Of a stretch of 10,081 bases of DNA, positions 1,774-10,081 are shown piece by piece. The stretch's first letter is position 1. The number at the start of each line of letters is the position of its first letter. Under the pieces are notes generated by a model. That model saw nothing but the letters and a program-made list of their open reading frames with translations, was not told the origin of the DNA and ran no database searches. The position numbers were made by a program, and so were the translations under genes. The stretch comes from Thermoplasmatota archaeon (lineage in GTDB: Archaea > Thermoplasmatota > Thermoplasmata > RBG-16-68-12 > JAGMCJ01). Where the stretch lies: contig JAJISH010000044.1 in assembly GCA_022848825.1 (NCBI GenBank), positions 1 to 10,081 on the forward strand, in the 5' to 3' direction.

Positions 1774-3351
1774 GTGTGGTCGATGGATCGTAAGAAGCTC
1801 CTTGTGGGTGTCACTCCACTTCTGTTCACGCTTATCCTCTTGGTGGTTTTGACCCAGCTCAATGCGCTCGCCGATGACGAGGGCACGAGATCACCAGGGG
1901 TCTATGTTGGCTCGGATGCATGTATGACCTGCCACTCGGAACAGTATGACGGATGGAATGCCACTCTTCATCCCAATTCCTGGGACACTCTCATTGTTGA
2001 TCCTCTGAAGCAGGAGGAATGCGAGCATTGCCATGTTACGGGCTATGATGATGTGGTCAATGGGGGCTTCGACCCGGCCACCGACCTTCCCGTGGAGATG
2101 AGGGGAACCCAGTGTGAAGCCTGCCATGGACCAGGCGAGGATCACGTGAACTCTGGCGACCCTGTAGACACTCAGGTCAACCTGTCCGCGCGGGTCTGCG
2201 GAGCGATTTGCCATCAAGAGGAACACCACCCATACTATGAGGAATGGAACCAAAGCGGCCACTCCCTCTCTCTGATCAGTCTGAGGGGAGCAGCAGGAGC
2301 TGCCGAGGACGCTTGCCTGGAGTGCCATTCGGCTGACTACATACTGAACGAAGAGCCAGATAGACCCTCAATCGCCACCGCCGAGTTCGCAATCACATGC
2401 TCTGTCTGTCACGACCCTCATAACATTACGAATCCGTATCAGCTGAGGTGGCCGAAGGATGAGCTGTGCGAAAGGTGCCATTATCCCGATGGAGCAATTC
2501 CTGGCGATCCGATCTACCACCCGCAGTCCTCCATGAGGGACGGTAGAAGCGGCGCACCGATTCTCGGCGAGGCGTTCATGCCTGATGTTGAGTGCGCCGA
2601 CTGTCACATCTATATGGATATGTCTGACAACATCACGGGCCACAGCTTCACACAGAAGCCGGAGGCATGTGTTGAATGTCACCAGACGACTCCGCCTATC
2701 TATTCGGTGGAACTGGCGGAGATTCAAATCGCACAGTGGCGGACTCAGACCTGGACGAGAATCATCGATGTGCAGCAGGTAGTTGTTCGGGCGGAAGGGG
2801 CCATTGAGGATGCGCCCAATTACGGTTTTCCAGAAAGCACACTTCAAGTCGCTGCCGATTTGTACAATGAGGCGAACTACTCGTTCTCCTTCGTTGTCGC
2901 TGATGGCAGCGGTGGCGCCCATAATCCAGCCTTTGCCAGCGCACTCCTCAACTTCTCCGAAGACAGAAGCAATGAACTCATTGCACTTCTCACTCCAGGA
3001 ACGGTGAGGGGCAGAGTAGTCGATGCCGCCGGTAGCCCGGTCGAGGGGGTCACAATTGAGAAGGATGGTGTCACATGGGCGACCTCTAAGAAGAACGGGT
3101 CATTTGAATTCGAATACGCTCCGGGTGCCCACTCGTTCAGCCTGAAGCTGAGAGGGTCTAACGTGGGTAGCATAGAATCGGTAACAGTTGTCGCCGGGGA
3201 GATCTCGGACATCGGCGACCTTGAAGTGACCGAGCAGGATCTATTCGTTCCCATTATGATATCAATTGGCGTCATCATCATTTTGTCGGTCATCGTGGCC
3301 TACTTGCTCCTCAAGATCAGAGGACTCAGGTCCAAGAAGGAAGAGTCATAG
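1774..3351 (+). CDS. Membrane-anchored nonaheme cytochrome c, paralogue 1
   Basis: This gene encodes a 525-residue exported electron-transfer protein. A basic head and hydrophobic stretch (residues 5-33) form a signal peptide. Eight CxxCH heme sites begin at Cys50, 83, 114, 181, 209, 232, 274 and 299. A ninth, odd site is C142-GAI-C146-H147 (CX3CH). The early order (CMTCHSEQYDGW, a second CxxCH, then CEACHGPG) resembles the cytochrome c554-type fold. Extra histidines suited as distal ligands are His66, 124, 152, 163, 216, 249, 290 and 383. Residues 310-405 are helical and include DGSGGAHNP. Residues 408-485 look like a carboxypeptidase-regulatory-type beta-sandwich. One helix (about 490-513) and a basic tail anchor it with the hemes outside. 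The CXXCK site of nitrite reductase is absent and the substrate is unknown. The start is GTG 1774, or ATG 1783 nine bases on. Confidence 0.92.
   Translation: MWSMDRKKLLVGVTPLLFTLILLVVLTQLNALADDEGTRSPGVYVGSDACMTCHSEQYDGWNATLHPNSWDTLIVDPLKQEECEHCHVTGYDDVVNGGFDPATDLPVEMRGTQCEACHGPGEDHVNSGDPVDTQVNLSARVCGAICHQEEHHPYYEEWNQSGHSLSLISLRGAAGAAEDACLECHSADYILNEEPDRPSIATAEFAITCSVCHDPHNITNPYQLRWPKDELCERCHYPDGAIPGDPIYHPQSSMRDGRSGAPILGEAFMPDVECADCHIYMDMSDNITGHSFTQKPEACVECHQTTPPIYSVELAEIQIAQWRTQTWTRIIDVQQVVVRAEGAIEDAPNYGFPESTLQVAADLYNEANYSFSFVVADGSGGAHNPAFASALLNFSEDRSNELIALLTPGTVRGRVVDAAGSPVEGVTIEKDGVTWATSKKNGSFEFEYAPGAHSFSLKLRGSNVGSIESVTVVAGEISDIGDLEVTEQDLFVPIMISIGVIIILSVIVAYLLLKIRGLRSKKEES
2197..2214 (+). 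other. Non-canonical CX3CH heme site
   Basis: The codons read Cys-Gly-Ala-Ile-Cys-His, three residues between the cysteines instead of two. The aligned sites in the two paralogues are CSNCH and CKSCH, so this is heme site 4 with one residue inserted. The frame is open and conserved on both sides, including the HPYY motif just downstream. Confidence 0.75.
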
Positions 3352-3488: not shown

Positions 3489-3674
3489 CTAGATTAGAAA
3501 CCAGATCACTGAGGAGACAACTATGGCCAGGAGAACGACGACAAGGCGAATCAGTATGCTAAGTTTCTGGTTGGCCGCCTCAATTCCTTCCAAGATAACG
3601 AGATCCTTATCGAGTTTCCGTCCCATCATTTGCAGGTCCACCTCCGTATTCCTGAGCCGACGCTCACCCGCCAA
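3489..3674 (-). CDS. Small tail-anchored protein, third gene of the Tat cluster
   Basis: This gene encodes 61 residues. About 38 charged, helical residues (RRLRNTEVDLQMMGRKLDKD) are followed by one very hydrophobic helix near the end (LIRLVVVLLAIVVSSVIWF), with almost nothing after it. The likely topology is cytosolic N-terminus and membrane tail. The reading frame overlaps the end of tatA by 11 bases if translation starts at TTG 3674, which suggests translational coupling. GTG 3641 or ATG 3629 are alternative starts, and none has a strong ribosome site. I do not recognise the family. Its position directly after tatC and tatA suggests a role in or near the Tat translocase. It is not a TatA or TatB homologue by sequence, because the hydrophobic helix is at the wrong end. 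Confidence 0.6.
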   Translation of the reverse strand: MAGERRLRNTEVDLQMMGRKLDKDLVILEGIEAANQKLSILIRLVVVLLAIVVSSVIWFLI

Positions 3675-4062
3675 GCTTCTCGGAGATTAGTCCCTTCAGC
3701 TCATCGACGCCGGTACCCTCCACATCGATTCCGAGAGCCTTCGCGACCGTCACCGCACCCTTCTTACTTGCCAGATCAACAGCTTCCAGCACCTCATCCG
3801 TTAGCTCCTTCTCATCTCTTCCCTTGGTGTTTATGTTCAGGGCTCTTGCAGCTCTTTCCGCAGGGGGCTCCTGAGGGACTTCAGCCCTCGTTTCGTACGA
3901 CTGCTTCAGCTCCCTCTCAATCTCCATCCTTCCTCTCCGGAACTCTCCCATCGCCCTTCCAAGGGACCTCGCAAGCTCCGGAATCTTTTTCGCTCCGAAA
4001 AGAAGTACGAGAATAATCACCAGAAGGACAATCACCTCGGGCCCCGGGTCAAGAAGCCCCAT
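3664..4062 (-). CDS. tatA: Sec-independent protein translocase subunit TatA
   Basis: TatA forms the membrane-permeabilising oligomer of the twin-arginine pathway, which exports folded proteins in partnership with TatC. The 132-residue product has the family layout. A short outside N-terminus (MGLLDPGPEV) leads into a single membrane helix (residues about 9-22), the FGAKKIPELARSLGRAMGEF hinge and amphipathic helix, and a charged cytosolic tail. The start is ATG 4062, with GGAGG seven bases upstream (4070-4074); a longer reading from 4092 has no support. The tail is unusual: after a Pro/Glu-rich linker it carries two related units of about 22 residues (ALNINTKGRDEKEL and ALGIDVEGTGVDEL), extending the protein beyond typical TatA. 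It is 72 bases downstream of tatC on the same strand and overlaps the next small gene, so the three probably form one operon. TatB is the other possible name. Confidence 0.9.
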   Translation of the reverse strand: MGLLDPGPEVIVLLVIILVLLFGAKKIPELARSLGRAMGEFRRGRMEIERELKQSYETRAEVPQEPPAERAARALNINTKGRDEKELTDEVLEAVDLASKKGAVTVAKALGIDVEGTGVDELKGLISEKLGG

Positions 4063-4069
4063 CTCATAG

Positions 4070-4074
4070 CCTCC
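4070..4074 (-). promoter_or_regulatory. Ribosome binding site of tatA
   Basis: A perfect GGAGG on the minus strand ends seven bases before ATG 4062. It fixes the tatA start, giving a product that begins MGLLDPGPEV, the expected short N-terminus before the membrane helix. Confidence 0.7.
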
Positions 4075-4134
4075 TATTGCTCGATGCCACACACATCCAT
4101 TTCCTCAGAGGCTCACATCCTCCATCGGTCCGAA

Positions 4135-4932
4135 TCATTCGCTTTCACCACCTCTATGCGTTCTCACTGACAGGAAGTAGCCTAATACGTAGAGACCAAG
4201 CATTGGTAATGAAACGAGCATCATGGTGATTCCGCTTCCATCTGGTGTAATCACCGCACCGAAGATAAATATTGCTACTGCTGCAAACCTCCAGTTTCTT
4301 CTCCAAAAATGAACATCCACAACGCCCAGAAACGTAGATCCGACCATTAGGATCGGCAACTCGAATGCAAGCCCAAACGAAAAAAGGAATAGAAGAGTGA
4401 AATCTACGAACTCCGATGGATTCAGGAAGGTATTGTCCACGAGATTGAAGGCGATTTTGTATAGGAAATCGTAGACGAATGGGAGGACGAACAGATAGGC
4501 GAAGACAGCTCCAGTAACGAAAAGCAGAGCGGCAGGAATTGAGAACTGGAGGAGGATTCTTCTCTCTTTGGACTTGAGTGCAGGTGCGAGGAATCTTCCC
4601 AGTTCGTACACGATGATTGGCATGGCGAACAGAATCGAAAGGAAGAGAGCGATCTTGAACTCTACGAGGATTGCGTCCGTCGGACCCATGACAGCGGTTT
4701 CGACACCCTCTGGAATGAGATCAGCTTCCATTTGACCGAAGAACTGGATGGCAATCGGATGGAAGACATTGAACGTGGGATGGACAATGGGAACGCCGGA
4801 TACCTCGGCCGGTTCCACCTCCACAAGAATGAATATCATGAAGAGAATTCCGCACACAGCCAGTATCCTCAGGGTTCGTCTTCTCAACTCATCAAGATGG
4901 TCCAGAAAACTCATCCCAGCAACTTCTACCAT
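4135..4932 (-). CDS. tatC: Sec-independent protein translocase subunit TatC
   Basis: TatC is the membrane receptor of the Tat pathway that recognises twin-arginine signal peptides. The 265-residue product has the hallmark N-terminal MSFLDHLDELRRR motif just before the first membrane helix and six hydrophobic segments in all. An outside loop follows helix 1 and contains PIVHPTFNVFHP. The LAFELPILM segment holds the conserved membrane-embedded glutamate, and the final part includes ITPDG and LVSLPMLGLY. Length and order match the family. ATG 4932 is preferred because GGAG lies about six bases upstream. The frame extends to GTG 4989, adding 19 polar residues without a ribosome site. It is the first gene of a minus-strand cluster with tatA and a small tail-anchored protein, between two multiheme cytochrome genes. 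Confidence 0.93.
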   Translation of the reverse strand: MVEVAGMSFLDHLDELRRRTLRILAVCGILFMIFILVEVEPAEVSGVPIVHPTFNVFHPIAIQFFGQMEADLIPEGVETAVMGPTDAILVEFKIALFLSILFAMPIIVYELGRFLAPALKSKERRILLQFSIPAALLFVTGAVFAYLFVLPFVYDFLYKIAFNLVDNTFLNPSEFVDFTLLFLFSFGLAFELPILMVGSTFLGVVDVHFWRRNWRFAAVAIFIFGAVITPDGSGITMMLVSLPMLGLYVLGYFLSVRTHRGGESE

Positions 4933-5034
4933 TTGAATCTCCGATCCCGTGCCCGTCCTCCCGCTGTCAATGAACGTCCCAGACGTCACTTCATGATGAC
5001 CAAATTGACATCCGAACGAAGAAAGGCAGAAATC

Positions 5035-5262: not shown

Positions 5263-5291
5263 CGGTGTAATACTCACTCTACCAGACTATT

Positions 5292-5297
5292 GAGGGG
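5292..5297 (+). promoter_or_regulatory. Ribosome binding site deciding the TTG 5305 start
   Basis: GAGGGG ends seven bases before TTG 5305. The other in-frame TTG, at 5290, overlaps this motif and has none of its own. Starting at 5305 also aligns the twin-arginine head with that of paralogue 3. Confidence 0.5.
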
Positions 5298-5304
5298 TTT
5301 CGTC

Positions 5305-6897
5305 TTGAGACGTAGGGAAATCGCCGCACTGGTGTCCACGACCGCACTCGTTTTCTTTGTCTTCGTGTTGCTGTATCTCGTGACAGCACAGGGCGAGGTC
5401 GGAACAAGGGGCGAAGGGGAGTATCAAGGGTTCACTTCTTGCACCGGGCCCGGATGTCATGATAATATTGTCTCGAATTGGTCCCTTACCCCTCATTCAC
5501 TCGCCTGGGACACCCTGAACGCATCCGGTGAGGCCGAGGACTGGTGTGAGGCCTGTCACACAACCGGAGCTGGAGACGAACTTCACAACGGGTTCAACAC
5601 AACAACAGATCTGCCCGATTATCTCAAGAATGTGCAATGCGAATCTTGTCACGGTCCCGATCCCATGAACGCAACTGGGCGTCCAGCGACCACGCTCGAT
5701 TACTCCGCAGAACTCTGCTCGAATTGTCATCGAATTGCGGAATTTGGAGCAACGGAAAGGAGATATCACCCATACTATGATGACTGGCTCAATTCATCTC
5801 ACGCCCGCTCCTTGCAGCTTGCTGGCGGTCAAGTTGTCACAGATCCCGAATGTCGTGGATGCCATGTTTCGCAGGTTGCGATCGTTGAGACATTCGAGGG
5901 TGGGGTGTTCCAGGGACCGCTTGATGACCCCCAACCGATTACCTGTGCAACGTGTCATGATCCTCACGGCTCCGCCAACCCCTATCAGCTGAGAAAGCCC
6001 ATCGCAGACCTCTGTGCTTCTTGTCATCACCCCACAGAAGGACTTCCTGGAACGGGGCTTGAGCACCCGCAGTCAGCCATGCGAAACGGAACCAGCGAAA
6101 TACCTCCATCCGATGTGCCAAGTTCCTACAGCATGGAGAACGTCCTCTGCGCTGACTGCCACATGTATTCAGCTGAGGGACCCCCAAGGGTGACAGGTCA
6201 CGAATTCAAGCCGAAACCCGAGGCTTGCGCAGTTTGCCACGACGGTGGCGCACCTCCCCAAATGGATGTGGCCCAATCAGCTGCGAAGATTCTTGAATTG
6301 AAAGATGCAACTCATGACCATCTGTACAGCGCCGCTGAGAATGTTTCCGTCGCATCTTCCCTCTTATTGCTGTCGGAAGAGCACGGATTCCCTCAAACGG
6401 TCAGGGACCAAGCCCTCTCCCTCTTTGAGCTGGCCAACTACTCTTTGATTTTTGTGGAGGCAGATGGCAGCGAGGGGGTGCACAACCCCACGTATGCCCG
6501 GGATCTCCTCAATTTCTCGAACGAGAAAGCCAATGAGGTCATTTCGCTCTTGGCAACTGGCAGTGTTCAGGGCAAGCTCAAGGATGGCAGCGGAAACGCC
6601 ATCAAAGATGCACGCATCATGAGAGACGGTTACGTCCTCGTTATCACGACGGCTAATGGGAGCTTTGCCTTTGGTCATTCTCCGGGTGTTTTCACGTTCG
6701 ATGTGGTCAAGGATGACAGGACGCTGGGGGAGATTAGCGATGTGGAAGTCGTGGAAGAGGAGACCACAGACTTGGGAACCGTGAATCTTCCTCTAGTGGC
6801 AGATGATTTTGGGCTATACGTTCTGATTGTCGTATCGACAATAGTCATTGTCGCAATCGCCCTCGTGCTCTACGGAATCAGAATCAGGAAGGCTTGA
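5305..6897 (+). CDS. Membrane-anchored nonaheme cytochrome c, paralogue 2
   Basis: This 530-residue homologue of the 1774-3351 protein has the same order of parts. Its head (RRREIA, then a long hydrophobic run to about residue 26) is an export signal with a twin-arginine look. Eight CxxCH sites begin at Cys81, 112, 138, 183, 214, 237, 282 and 308. The first heme site is C46-TGPG-C51-H52 (CX4CH), where paralogue 1 has CMTCH. Histidines kept in all three paralogues occur in TPHS, YHPYY, SSHARS, DPHG, EHPQS, TGHEF and GVHNP. CHGPDPM replaces the CHGPGEDH of paralogue 1. A helical segment, a beta-sandwich (KLKDGSGNAIKDARIMRDG onward), one membrane helix (about residues 500-523) and a basic tail complete it. 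It is closer to paralogue 3 than to paralogue 1. The start codon is TTG. The substrate is unknown. Confidence 0.92.
   Translation: MRRREIAALVSTTALVFFVFVLLYLVTAQGEVGTRGEGEYQGFTSCTGPGCHDNIVSNWSLTPHSLAWDTLNASGEAEDWCEACHTTGAGDELHNGFNTTTDLPDYLKNVQCESCHGPDPMNATGRPATTLDYSAELCSNCHRIAEFGATERRYHPYYDDWLNSSHARSLQLAGGQVVTDPECRGCHVSQVAIVETFEGGVFQGPLDDPQPITCATCHDPHGSANPYQLRKPIADLCASCHHPTEGLPGTGLEHPQSAMRNGTSEIPPSDVPSSYSMENVLCADCHMYSAEGPPRVTGHEFKPKPEACAVCHDGGAPPQMDVAQSAAKILELKDATHDHLYSAAENVSVASSLLLLSEEHGFPQTVRDQALSLFELANYSLIFVEADGSEGVHNPTYARDLLNFSNEKANEVISLLATGSVQGKLKDGSGNAIKDARIMRDGYVLVITTANGSFAFGHSPGVFTFDVVKDDRTLGEISDVEVVEEETTDLGTVNLPLVADDFGLYVLIVVSTIVIVAIALVLYGIRIRKA
5440..5460 (+). other. Non-canonical CX4CH first heme site
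   Basis: The codons read Cys-Thr-Gly-Pro-Gly-Cys-His. The site aligns with CMTCH in paralogue 1 and CQNQPACH in paralogue 3 through the shared W...PH...WDTL segment that follows. CX4CH heme sites are established in tetraheme cytochrome c3, so attachment here is credible. Confidence 0.8.
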
Positions 6898-6939
6898 GAG
6901 TGTGCGGTCATTCTTCATGGTGCATCTGTGTCAAAAAAA

Positions 6940-6951
6940 GTTTAAGTATTC
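6940..6951 (+). promoter_or_regulatory. TATA box of the Ig-like heme protein gene
   Basis: GTTTAAGTATTC follows an A-run (6933-6939) that could act as the purine-rich TFB-recognition element. A start near 6970 would give a leader of about 25 bases before ATG 6996. It suggests this gene has its own promoter despite lying only 98 bases after the preceding cytochrome gene. Confidence 0.5.
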
Positions 6952-6995
6952 TCCGAACTTGACACTTGGAGCCCGCACAGTACAGGTGGGAACGT

Positions 6996-8012
6996 ATGAA
7001 TGACAAGTTTAGGACAATCGTACCTTTGATATCATGTCTCCTACTCTTACTCGTGCTCCTGTCCGCAGCTAGCACTTTGATGGGCTACAGCGGCGGATGG
7101 CGGGACGACGATGAGGACTACAACTGCGGAGGGACCTCGTGTCATTCAGGGGCCGCGAATCACGGGGCGGGAACGATCGAGGTCAGTCTTGACAAGACCT
7201 CGGTGCTTTCCGGACAGAGCCTCACGATTGCCGTCAATGTGACCGAAACGCAGCTTGGCGGCGATTCTCTCATCGGCGTCTTTCTGCTCAGCTCCCAGAC
7301 CGGGTCGAACGATCATCCTTCCAATCAAGGTTGGACAATCGCTCAAGACCCCAACGGTGGGACCGTTGGCGATGGATCAGCGAAGAACTATGTGGAAAAA
7401 GTGTCACCCGGGTCTGGAGTCTCGGTATCCTTCAAGTGGAATCTGGAAGCCCCGCCAACCCCAGGCGACTACGACCTATTCGTAAGAGTCCATCATGGAA
7501 GTGTTGCCAGAAACGCCCTCTGGGAGGATTACGAGGGGACGATTAGCGTGGAGGTGACGCCTCTGCCCTCCGGCACTCCAGAGATTCACCATGAACCTGC
7601 CTCTGTGGGTTATGTTGAGGAGGCCACAACGGTTACAGCTGACGTGGTCAATGCGACGAAGGTCTTCCTGTATTGGAGATTGGCGGGGGAGTCTCAGTTC
7701 AACTCAAGCGAGATGCTCAACACATCCGTCCTATCGGATGCGGGATGGGCGTTCGAGGGCTCACTTCCGCCTCGAGGGGTAGCCGTGCAGATTGAGTACT
7801 ACATTGTTGCGACTCACGAGATTGATGGCGGACCTCTTGTCGCGGACACGGCAATCTTCACCGTATCGATTGAGCCAAGACCCGAGATTCCTAATCTGAC
7901 CGCCTGGACAATTCAGATTGTCATCATAACCGAAGTCGTCGTTTTTGCCGCCATTATCGGCTGGAGAATATCGAAATCAAGAGCAAAGAAGGAAGGTGAC
8001 CGAAACGGTTGA
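6996..8012 (+). CDS. Membrane-anchored Ig-like surface protein with one CX4CH heme motif
   Basis: This gene encodes 338 residues. A signal peptide (residues about 5-28, very Leu-rich) is followed by GYSGG, an acidic patch and C44-GGTS-C49-H50, a single heme-type motif. Next comes a beta-rich domain (about 58-187; IEVSLDKTSVLSGQSLTI, then FKWNLEAPPTPGDYDLFVRV), a second Ig-like domain (about 190-300), a membrane helix (about 308-328) and a basic tail. The GYSGG...CxxxxCHSG beginning before a beta domain recalls proteins described as choice-of-anchor V, which carry a CxxCHSG motif; this is a similarity from memory. It is probably an outward-facing monoheme electron carrier working with the nonaheme cytochromes, but heme binding is unproven. 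ATG 6996 is preferred, with GGTGG seven bases upstream, over TTG 6966. Its end overlaps the next gene by 17 bases, which indicates an operon. Confidence 0.85.
   Translation: MNDKFRTIVPLISCLLLLLVLLSAASTLMGYSGGWRDDDEDYNCGGTSCHSGAANHGAGTIEVSLDKTSVLSGQSLTIAVNVTETQLGGDSLIGVFLLSSQTGSNDHPSNQGWTIAQDPNGGTVGDGSAKNYVEKVSPGSGVSVSFKWNLEAPPTPGDYDLFVRVHHGSVARNALWEDYEGTISVEVTPLPSGTPEIHHEPASVGYVEEATTVTADVVNATKVFLYWRLAGESQFNSSEMLNTSVLSDAGWAFEGSLPPRGVAVQIEYYIVATHEIDGGPLVADTAIFTVSIEPRPEIPNLTAWTIQIVIITEVVVFAAIIGWRISKSRAKKEGDRNG
7125..7145 (+). other. CX4CH heme-type motif
   Basis: The codons read Cys-Gly-Gly-Thr-Ser-Cys-His, and these are the only two cysteines in the mature protein. The spacing matches the first site of the neighbouring nonaheme paralogue 2. 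Confidence 0.65.
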
Positions 8013-8655
8013 CTTGATCGCTGTCCACTCCGTCACCGTTGAGCTCCATGGCGGAATGCTCACACTCGCTGCAGTTTGCATAGGAATCAAGGTCCTGGAC
8101 ATTCTGTGGGGCAGGTTCTTGGGTGACAGGGGAGGGATACTTCGCAGGACTCTCAAGAAAGCATCCGAGTACTCCACTCCGACGATCTTGTTGTCCGCCT
8201 TCGGCGGTGTCGTGGGTCTCGCTCTTTCCGGCATCACTGGATCATCGATAATCCCTTTCGAGACGATCTCCAGTTCCCCGATTGCACTCAATAAAGTGAT
8301 GGTCTCAATATTCGCCACAGAGTTCTGGAGCATTATGATTGCCATGAACATGGTATTCCAAGAGAGTGCCTGGAAGAACAGACAGATGACGGCCCTGATG
8401 GTGCTTTTCGGGGGACTGGGTTACTTCTTCTCAATCACCGGAGGAAGCATAGGAGGGACCATGGCAGGAAAGGAGAGCATCATGGAGCCCTTCTGGCAGT
8501 TCCTGGGCGTAGACCTCCACTCATCCTGGATTCTTTCCTCTGATGTTGTCCTTGTCCTTATCGGCGTGGTCAACGTCGTTGGGATTCTTCTCATCGTCTT
8601 CTCCAATCGTATATTGGAATCCGTGACATCGAGTCGCAAGGCCCCCAACAAGTAG
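7996..8655 (+). CDS. Five-helix membrane protein of unknown function
   Basis: This gene encodes 219 residues with about five membrane helices near residues 20-38, 62-80, 97-120, 131-150 and 178-202. Helices 2 and 4 are Gly-rich (FGGVVGLALSGITG and FGGLGYFFSITGGSIGG). There are three histidines: His11 and His18 just before helix 1 (VHSVTVELHGG), and His175 just before helix 5 (DLHSSW). I do not recognise the family. A histidine-flanked small membrane protein beside exported heme proteins could be a cytochrome b-like partner that passes electrons to or from the quinone pool, but this is inference from position. GTG 7996 is the likely start, overlapping the preceding gene by 17 bases with GGAA close upstream. 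The longer frame from 7945 adds only a shadow of that gene, and ATG 8056 would remove both N-terminal histidines. Confidence 0.75.
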   Translation: MTETVDLIAVHSVTVELHGGMLTLAAVCIGIKVLDILWGRFLGDRGGILRRTLKKASEYSTPTILLSAFGGVVGLALSGITGSSIIPFETISSSPIALNKVMVSIFATEFWSIMIAMNMVFQESAWKNRQMTALMVLFGGLGYFFSITGGSIGGTMAGKESIMEPFWQFLGVDLHSSWILSSDVVLVLIGVVNVVGILLIVFSNRILESVTSSRKAPNK

Positions 8656-8656
8656 G

Positions 8657-8672
8657 GACTTGCTTTGTTTTC
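8657..8672 (+). terminator. Possible T-rich terminator
   Basis: A T-rich stretch (CTTGCTTTGTTTTCC) begins just after the stop of the five-helix protein gene, with no hairpin before it. Archaeal termination often occurs at such tracts. It would separate the 6996-8655 pair from the next cytochrome gene, which has its own TATA box. Confidence 0.3.
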
Positions 8673-8691
8673 CGCGATGCCATCTAGCAAT

Positions 8692-8703
8692 CTAGATATA
8701 TAA
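8692..8703 (+). promoter_or_regulatory. TATA box of the third multiheme cytochrome gene
   Basis: CTAGATATATAA would direct transcription from near 8724, leaving a leader of about 29 bases that contains the GGAGGAGGA ribosome site at 8741-8749. It is the clearest promoter-like element in the window. Confidence 0.6.
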
Positions 8704-8740
8704 CGTCGCTATTATTGGGGAAGAGGAAGGAATCCAACCT

Positions 8741-8749
8741 GGAGGAGGA
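8741..8749 (+). promoter_or_regulatory. Ribosome binding site deciding a TTG start
   Basis: GGAGGAGGA lies just before TTG 8753, with its first GGAGG ending seven bases upstream. The next in-frame ATG (8783) would cut into the signal peptide and lose the paired arginines, so TTG is the start. Confidence 0.7.
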
Positions 8750-8752
8750 TAC

Positions 8753-10081
8753 TTGGGAATCCACAGAAGGGAAATTCTCGGGATGGTTTGTACAGCCGCT
8801 CTCGTATTGCTGCTTCTGGTAATACTCTCTCTTCTCTCATCAGACACTGCAGCCGATGGGCCCGGAACCCGAGGATCTGGGGATTATCAGGGCGCCTTCT
8901 CGTGTCAGAATCAGCCTGCCTGTCATGACAGACACTCTGAGCAGTACGATGCTTGGGTTCTCACTCCACATGCAAACGCATGGGATACCCTGAACAATTC
9001 AAGCGATCACCAGGACTGGTGCGAGAGCTGTCACACAACAGGTGCTGGTGACGACTCGCACAACGGGTTCAATGTGACGACAGACCAGCCTGACTATCTC
9101 AGGGACGTGCAGTGCGAATCCTGTCACGGGCATGACCCGATGAGTCTCGCCGATCCTTCTTCTGCAGTCGACTTCGGAGCCCTCGTCTGCAAGAGCTGTC
9201 ACTCGAACAACAGGTCATATCATCCCTATTATGACGAGTGGATGAGTTCAAAGCACGCGGTCTCTCTAAATGAAGCGGGCGGGAGCGTTGCGACAGACCC
9301 AAGCTGTCAGGGATGTCACGTAGCTCAAGTCGCAATTGCCGAAACGATCGAGGGAGGGACCGTGAGCCGCCCTATCTCCAATCCTCAGCCCATAACCTGC
9401 GCTGTCTGCCATGATCCTCACGGCTCTCCATACGAGAGTCAGCTCAGAATGGATCCCGCAGACCTCTGTGCCACTTGCCATAACCCAGGAGAAACGATAC
9501 CTGGTGAAGAAATAAGGCACCCGCAGTCCTACATGCGCAGCGGGATCAGTGGAATCGACTCCTCGCTAGTGCCAAAGAAAGATTTCATGAAAGATGTCCT
9601 TTGCTCGGACTGTCACTTGTACTCAACGGGGCCTCCCACGAACGTGACCGGTCATTCCTTCAGACCACGGGCGGACGCATGCGTGGCCTGCCACGAAACA
9701 GATCCAACGACATTCCCCATCACCAAAGATCAGGCATTGAGCGCCATTAGTGCCTGGCAGTCCAGCACCGATGATGTCTTCTACTCTGTATTACCAAACC
9801 TCACAGTGGCTCAGACGATGATCGAGGACGCCACTCGCTATGGCTTTGACTTATCATTGATTGAAGTCGCACGGGGACTGTACGAGGAAGCCAATTACTC
9901 AGTCAGTTTCGTTCGCGCCGATGGGAGCCATGGCGCTCATAACCCTCAGTACTCGCTGAGTCTGCTCGATTTCGCAGCGAATAGGACCGAGACTGTCATC
10001 ACTATGCTGAAGCCCGGACACGTCATCGGTAGAGCCGTGGATGCTGAAGGCAACCCCGTTCCGGGAATCGTCATCAGAAGG
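8753..10081 (+). CDS. Nonaheme cytochrome c, paralogue 3 (partial)
   Basis: The frame starts at TTG 8753 and is still open at the right edge, giving 443 residues. Comparison with its paralogues suggests about 85-90 more, ending in a membrane helix. The head MGIHRREILG plus a Leu-rich run to about residue 29 is an export signal, and HRREIL fits the twin-arginine pattern. Heme sites are C51-QNQPA-C57-H58 (CX5CH) and CxxCH at Cys90, 121, 146, 185, 216, 239, 284 and 310. The seven non-motif histidines common to the paralogues are His73, 157, 168, 223, 256, 301 and 396. CHGHDPM matches the Met-containing form in paralogue 2. GSHGAHNP is followed by the start of the beta-sandwich (GHVIGRAVDAEGNPVPG). 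It is closest to paralogue 2, including gapless DNA similarity around heme sites 2 and 3. The substrate is unknown. Confidence 0.92.
   Translation, partial: MGIHRREILGMVCTAALVLLLLVILSLLSSDTAADGPGTRGSGDYQGAFSCQNQPACHDRHSEQYDAWVLTPHANAWDTLNNSSDHQDWCESCHTTGAGDDSHNGFNVTTDQPDYLRDVQCESCHGHDPMSLADPSSAVDFGALVCKSCHSNNRSYHPYYDEWMSSKHAVSLNEAGGSVATDPSCQGCHVAQVAIAETIEGGTVSRPISNPQPITCAVCHDPHGSPYESQLRMDPADLCATCHNPGETIPGEEIRHPQSYMRSGISGIDSSLVPKKDFMKDVLCSDCHLYSTGPPTNVTGHSFRPRADACVACHETDPTTFPITKDQALSAISAWQSSTDDVFYSVLPNLTVAQTMIEDATRYGFDLSLIEVARGLYEEANYSVSFVRADGSHGAHNPQYSLSLLDFAANRTETVITMLKPGHVIGRAVDAEGNPVPGIVIRR
8903..8926 (+). other. Non-canonical CX5CH first heme site
   Basis: The codons read Cys-Gln-Asn-Gln-Pro-Ala-Cys-His. 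The downstream EQYDAW and TPH...WDTL residues align with the canonical first site of paralogue 1 (SEQYDGW), so this is the same heme position with three extra residues in the loop. No other cysteine nearby could make a standard CxxCH. Confidence 0.75.

Follow-up and report, generated by a model that had tools for sequence, protein, structure and literature searches.

Variable cysteine spacing at the first heme site of tandem nonaheme cytochromes in a Thermoplasmata archaeon

The window that we analysed, a stretch of 10,081 nucleotides, is the whole of contig C379 in a 1.96-Mb archaeal assembly (453 contigs, 88.99% complete), and the closest homologues that carry an organism name are labelled 'Thermoplasmata archaeon'. 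It encodes three paralogous nonaheme cytochromes, W1, W2 and W3, in which the cysteines of the first heme motif (site 1) are separated by two, four and five residues, respectively. Heme c motifs are generally taken to have a constant cysteine spacing, and the long variant known best is linked to a dedicated maturation protein. We propose, with a probability that we put at about 0.58, that loop length at heme site 1 is tolerated variation that has been reshuffled among copies, and not a paralogue-specific tuning. The case matters because one site repeatedly changes length among related copies and eight others stay constant, all in a genome whose maturation apparatus is simplified. With several loop lengths, swappable between neighbouring copies, the family is a natural test of how strict the heme-attaching machinery is.

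Heme site 1 in the window and across the family

The genes for W1 (paralogue A, 525 amino acids, 1774..3351), W2 (paralogue B, 535 amino acids, 5290..6897) and W3 (paralogue C, 443 amino acids, 8753..10081) lie on the forward strand; W3 is open at the contig end, with all nine of its motifs inside. The three proteins align along their whole length, and we counted nine CXnCH motifs in each, the number given in the initial annotation of this DNA. Exact reading of the DNA also bore out the three spacings described there: on the forward strand, site 1 is CMTCH (CX2CH) at 1921..1935 in W1, CTGPGCH (CX4CH) at 5440..5460 in W2, both supported by alignment as well, and CQNQPACH (CX5CH) at 8903..8926 in W3. 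The flanks of the site align, as had been claimed for its equivalence in the three paralogues. Furthermore, C51, C57 and H58 (W3 numbering) are invariant columns in a 55-sequence alignment with W3 as its first member; the motif is therefore not due to chance, and the variant cysteines are conserved among homologues, as the annotation had supposed. One homologue, P0004, lacks the first cysteine of site 1 and was left out of this alignment and of the spacing tables. The annotation had overlooked two features, namely a CX3CH motif at site 4 of W1 (CGAICH, 2197..2214, forward strand) and three residues that follow the CH of W3.

The loop lengths at site 1 were then tabulated among homologues, a check that had been proposed earlier. 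The table holds 73 rows (3 from the window, 59 from protein searches and 11 read from related genomes), some of them near-identical (G001A and P0124 are identical), and row counts are not independent events. Site 1 was defined by pattern as the first CXnCH in the sequence. The table omits P0001 and P0121, which are the window's own proteins, P0004, the proteins without site 1 (P0011, P0016, P0018, P0029, P0030, P0034, P0138 and P0146) and the more distant matches except nine outgroup-type rows. In paralogue A, site 1 is CX2 and site 4 is CX3 in all 23 rows; site 9 is CX4 in a single row. Nine motifs are present in 32 of the 33 rows of the clade that contains W2 and W3 (the W2/W3 clade), the remaining row being a fragment. 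Lengths 2, 4 and 5 all occur at site 1 of this clade: CX4 in 24 of 32 rows, CX5 in four and CX2 in four, one of which (P0149) is a long basal branch. Sites 2 to 9 of the same clade are CX2 in 256 of 256 cases, and an overall relaxation of the heme motifs was rejected on this ground. One row of a further group of eight has CX4 at site 2, and the nine outgroup rows have CX2 at every site. The observed length changes are in frame and spare the three heme residues, with P0004 as the exception. The family itself is patchy, with a match in 11 of 61 relatives at E ≤ 0.001 and in 9 of 400 genomes of the class at E ≤ 1e-40, the own genome being counted in both; a contig profile scan gave at least 79 loci, mostly bacterial among the matches listed.

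The initial annotation had read the three spacings as a loop that grew from CX2 through CX4 to CX5 across tandem duplicates. The trees do not agree with this order. A quick tree of all 73 rows and a careful tree of 40 rows, from which the sequence up to 12 residues beyond the site-1 motif had been removed, both require a minimum of eight changes of site-1 loop length. In both, CX4 predominates in the W2/W3 clade, the CX2 rows P0002, P0005 and P0014 are nested within a CX4 clade, and CX5 sits on four separate tips (W3, P0003, P0021 and P0147), none of which are sisters. Forcing the four CX5 rows together costs 1043 log-likelihood units (p-AU 5e-43, a descriptive value, as the first tree had prompted the grouping). 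The protein nearest to W3 is P0002 (CX2), with 78% identity over 370 columns, and the root of paralogue C is compatible with either CX4 or CX2. Both trees thus rule out a stepwise series from W1 through W2 to W3.

Exchange among tandem copies

In genomes G005 and G010, the A, B, C and D copies lie in a single cluster. The DNA of their C orthologues is 0.86 to 0.99 identical in 30-codon windows away from site 1, and the identity falls around site 1 to 0.78 (codons 31-60) and 0.74 (codons 46-75). In the same region G005-C approaches paralogue D, with identities of 0.70 (codons 31-60), 0.88 (46-75) and 0.96 (61-90), compared with 0.39-0.52 before the tract and 0.40-0.73 in windows that begin beyond codon 120. 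Where both copies encode the same amino acid, the codons of C and D in G005 agree in 1/12 (codons 1-45), 8/12 (46-60), 47/51 (61-120), 72/173 (121-420) and 9/27 (421-495); the corresponding fractions in G010 are 2/11, 3/10, 46/53, 74/172 and 9/25. Fisher tests of the tract against the rest gave p values of 2.6e-12 and 4.9e-10, the limits of the tract having been picked after the profile was seen. The tract covers site 1 in G005, where C has CQQSGCH (CX4), and begins past site 1 in G010, where C has CQELPGCH (CX5). Its presence over site 1 in one genome and not in the other accounts for the CX4/CX5 difference of the C orthologues, whatever the direction of transfer. The B orthologues also agree less in this segment (7/12 and 28/43) than before it (31/33) or later (246/275; p 2.5e-6), which hints at a further exchange. 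The A orthologues of the two genomes showed no drop in DNA identity at site 1, and no conversion tract was found in W3 (W2 and W3 agree in 22/39 codons within 61-120 and in 58/136 later).

One could envision that heme 1 is a heme through which electrons enter or leave, that the loop sets its potential or its docking, and that every paralogue retains whichever length fits its partner. There is indeed a strong paralogue signal, with CX2 throughout paralogue A and CX4 in most of the W2/W3 clade, and the residues at the distal His-His pairs known from the cytochrome OcwA are likewise paralogue-dependent. However, paralogue C by itself spans lengths 2, 4 and 5 (W3, P0002, P0003, P0005, G005-C and P0031), no two CX5 rows are sisters, and close orthologues differ in loop length, with a conversion tract there. 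Tuning of the entry heme, which the initial annotation had put forward, is weakened by the three lengths within one orthologous group and by the conversion-linked difference of one orthologue pair; these findings do not refute it, and we regard it as unlikely.

Alternatively, the odd loops might be assembly errors or chimeras of tandem paralogues. The named matches are metagenome-assembled, the window genome is split into 453 contigs, and identity between paralogues reaches 0.96 in some segments. Nevertheless, the CX5 rows are drawn from different contigs and different sources, the C and D copies of G005 differ by several bases within the tract (the 47 of 51 codons given above, not 51), and the length changes are in frame and spare the heme residues in every protein but P0004. 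We think that an artefact of this kind is very improbable.

The W3 site and heme attachment

W3 carries three additional residues straight after CH (CHDRHSEQYDAW; D-R-H61, at 8927..8935 on the forward strand). The order at its site 1 is C51-QNQPA-C57-H58-D-R-H61-SEQYDAW, and the distance from the heme His (His58) to the conserved Trp is 10, compared with 7 in 31 of the 32 other rows of the W2/W3 clade; in P0014 it is 5 through an additional earlier Trp, the second Trp being at 7. It is H61 that occupies register 7 before the conserved Trp, as the heme His of other rows does. Because the three residues place this second His in the usual register, W3 is the least clean CX5CH case of the four, and P0003, P0021 and P0147 are better test proteins. 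A recent conversion from the W1 gene as the source of the HSEQYD stretch was rejected, because the residues in common are encoded with several synonymous differences.

Predicted structures near site 1, whose comparison had also been proposed earlier, differ in part. In the W3 model, C51 ends a helix at 48-52, residues 53-62 form a coil and a helix follows at 63-68, with a predicted local distance difference test score (pLDDT) of about 75 at residues 51-60; in the W1 model, the helices span 47-51 and 55-62 at a pLDDT of about 92. Confidence at this place is lower for W3, and the flanks are unmoved in these models, which were built without heme. The longer variants might lack a normal heme 1 held by two cysteines and carry instead a one-Cys heme, a heme in which His61 replaces His58 (in W3), or no heme. 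The register of His61, the pLDDT of 75 in that block and the loss of the first site-1 cysteine in P0004 speak for this idea; the invariance of both cysteines and the His in the 55-sequence alignment and the normal His-to-Trp distance of 7 in the other three CX5 rows speak against it, and it seems to us improbable.

A maturation apparatus was found elsewhere in the genome. Contig C387 encodes a CcmE that scores over the Pfam cut-off and terminates in CSSRY, which supplies the cysteine of a CXXXY motif. Its neighbours are a CcmC-like protein extended at the N terminus, CcmB-like and CcmA-like proteins and a ResA-like redoxin, the CcmA-, B- and C-like genes scoring under the NCBI cut-offs. PF01578 is over its cut-off on C387 and on C231, where the protein is CcmF-like, with a WWD-type stretch seen by eye. 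CcmH gave no PF03918 match in the own genome and was positive in 4 of 14 control genomes; as the genome is 89% complete, its absence is provisional. This archaeal or System I* form of maturation is described in passages of PMC9084895 and PMC3601427. The annotation had suggested a tolerant archaeal maturation system: a CcmH-less archaeal system with a CXXXY CcmE was found, but loop growth across duplicates was not supported as its sign. The CcmC-like protein of C387 (L043 1746-2711) has an N-terminal part that resembles a CcmE-type OB-fold by eye, and NCBIfam matches CcmC over residues 130-301 only.

We envision tolerated variation arising as follows. Site 1 lies within the N-terminal cytochrome-c554-like module, where the first Cys closes one short helix and the second Cys and His precede the next. 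Additional residues lengthen the link between the helices, presumably as a bulge, and leave the flanks unmoved, as the alignment and the heme-free models show. A System I* apparatus, in which we found no CcmH, may attach heme alike to CX2, CX4 and CX5. Small in-frame length changes would create the loop variants, and recombination among tandem B, C and D copies could then shift them through gene conversion tracts that span hemes 1-3, for which the DNA evidence is one orthologue pair. Given in-frame changes and conversion among copies, differences in loop length would be mostly tolerated at a single permissive site and would not form a graded series of tuned states. The family would then provide matched natural variants for testing what System I* reads and what limits the spacing.

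Several points weigh against this proposal. Paralogue A never varies at site 1, and the permissiveness is not general, given that the eight other sites of the W2/W3 clade stay CX2. No W2/W3-clade row of the table has CX3 at site 1, and the length is therefore not wholly free. Conversion over site 1 rests on one orthologue pair, with the B pair suggestive and W3 not included, and the three post-CH residues of W3 have no counterpart in other rows. A passage of the review by Stevens et al. (PMC3601427) states that attachment 'goes wrong' at nonphysiological cysteine spacing, with an extra sulfur between Cys and heme, and a reference title there names the Ccm system in this connection. Tolerance can, therefore, not be assumed, and the hemes of all these proteins, the covalent heme at the CX4 and CX5 loops included, remain putative.

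A second family bears on the question. Between W2 and W3 lies a gene for a choice-of-anchor-V-like protein (6966..8012, forward strand; family score under the NCBI cut-off) with one motif, CGGTSCH (CX4, 7125-7145). The family gave 28 matches in 21 genomes; five weak matches, two of them without a motif, were left out, and CXnCH is present in 17 of the 23 counted and absent from 6. The 17 motifs comprise 3 CX1, 2 CX2, 4 CX3, 4 CX4, 1 CX5, 2 CX6 and 1 CX7. An alignment of nine such proteins found 26 proteins, two of which belong to the window genome: 15 have CX3, 5 CX4, 1 CX6 and 2 CX7, and 3 are motif-less. In 38 other genomes (from 38 of the at least 79 loci), 7 genomes match, and the 15 proteins read among the 16 matches have CX1 (8) or CX2 (7), with none longer. 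Because spacing is 1 to 7 here and 1 to 2 in those genomes, wide spacing may be a property of the lineage, and these putative heme motifs weakly back tolerance. One might go further and suppose that the maturation machinery of this archaeal lineage accepts, for heme attachment, cysteine pairs with any separation from one to seven residues. Spacing at exposed positions would then evolve with almost no constraint in two families that are not related, the nonahemes (2 to 5) and the choice-of-anchor-V proteins (1 to 7). We offer this tentatively and with considerable doubt; if it is true, heme counts based on CXXCH or even CX2-4CH undercount the cytochromes of that lineage.

Choice-of-anchor-V-like proteins with spacing 1 to 7 in the archaeal order are found at 6966-8012 of the window and in L127, L128, L129, L144, L131, L132 and L148. 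On C387 (L043 5386-7791), Rieske, cytochrome b6-like and subunit-IV-like genes stand next to one for a choice-of-anchor-V protein whose motif is CGSSDVTPCH (CX7); this protein may replace the c-type subunit.

Among 162 distant homologues of the nonahemes (P0035-P0120 and P0150-P0225; 1455 motif strings, assigned by pattern and not by alignment), the first motif is CX2 in 159 proteins; for the last motif, CX4 is found in 77, CX3 in 10 and CX2 in 73; inner motifs are CX2 in 1126 of 1131 cases. Spacing in these proteins varies at the ends of the heme sequence. Five of their motifs are CX5 or longer (CX5 in P0113 and CX8 in P0100, each the last motif; CX6 and CX7 in P0164; CX7 in P0179), and the notion that long motifs are unique to these archaea is not supported.

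Neighbouring genes and comparison with known cytochromes

Also between W2 and W3, a gene at 7945..8655 (forward strand) encodes a hydrophobic-looking protein of unassigned family, with no match in Pfam or NCBIfam. Genes for a TatA/E-like protein (3664..4092) and TatC (4135..4989), both identified by Pfam/NCBIfam, interrupt the cytochrome genes between W1 and W2 on the opposite strand. In related genomes, octaheme proteins of 706-725 amino acids (L028 3988-6165, L031 11317-13488 and L040 7677-9797) have CX3CH at their last site (CTSSCH, CTDGCH); those of L028 and L031 share a contig with a nonaheme cluster.

In one open-access library, CX5CH was not found alongside heme and cytochrome, and CX5CH, CX6CH, CX7CH, CX8CH and CXXXXXCH were absent from the top-ranked matches listed. 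Kletzin et al. searched archaeal proteomes with CxxCH (PMC4429474), and a heme census of Gallionellaceae using CX2-4CH already counted CX3CH and CX4CH (PMC10734462). Neither would count a CX5CH site. The variation at site 1 also suggests that archaeal hemes can be missed by motif searches limited to CXXCH or CX2-4CH. CX5 falls outside the census spacings, and here the spacing differs at a single site among members of one orthologous group.

The long motif of MccA is located at heme 2. In the present family, the variable site is heme 1, and the sole CcmF-like gene found lies on another contig; the CX15CH of MccA needs a dedicated maturation protein, as a passage of PMC3601427 has it. NrfA, described in a published passage as having five hemes and usually one CXXCK site, and the octaheme nitrite reductases are separate proteins that match the C-terminal half of the window proteins, from which the CXXCK site is absent. 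Cytochrome c554 (1bvb, 1ft6), also a separate protein, matches the N-terminal part. Chains resembling hydroxylamine oxidoreductase score lower in the homology comparison, in which absence from the match list excludes no family. The second-best match is the undecaheme S-layer cytochrome of Carboxydothermus ferrireducens (6qvm, which we take to be OmhA), with eleven hemes and an additional N-terminal part.

The best match is OcwA of Thermincola potens (PDB 6i5b), a nonaheme terminal reductase of the cell surface. W1, W2 and W3 share with it the nine motifs, the c554-like and NrfA-like modules and the three-helix bundle. At site 1 OcwA has CX2CH, followed by a long segment that is missing from the profile of the window proteins. 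W1 runs from an N-terminal hydrophobic helix through nine heme motifs and long C-terminal helices to a carboxypeptidase-regulatory-like beta domain and a C-terminal hydrophobic helix, and these last two elements are additional to OcwA. With OcwA residue numbers taken from a published passage and matched by hand to our alignment, the distal His-His pair of heme 2 (281/282) is kept in 23 of 23 paralogue-A rows, including W1, and in the W2/W3 clade its first position is occupied by Tyr in 21 of 32 rows, W2 and W3 among them, and by His in 11. The distal pair of heme 5 (380/381) is Tyr-His in W1, Glu-His in W2 and Arg-His in W3, its first His occurring in 1 of 23 A rows and in none of 31 aligned W2/W3-clade rows; the window proteins are, therefore, homologous to OcwA and are not OcwA itself. 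The models predict an N-terminal helix and, in W1, a C-terminal one. W1, W2 and W3 are archaeal relatives of OcwA, probably membrane-tethered, that would pass electrons to extracellular acceptors.

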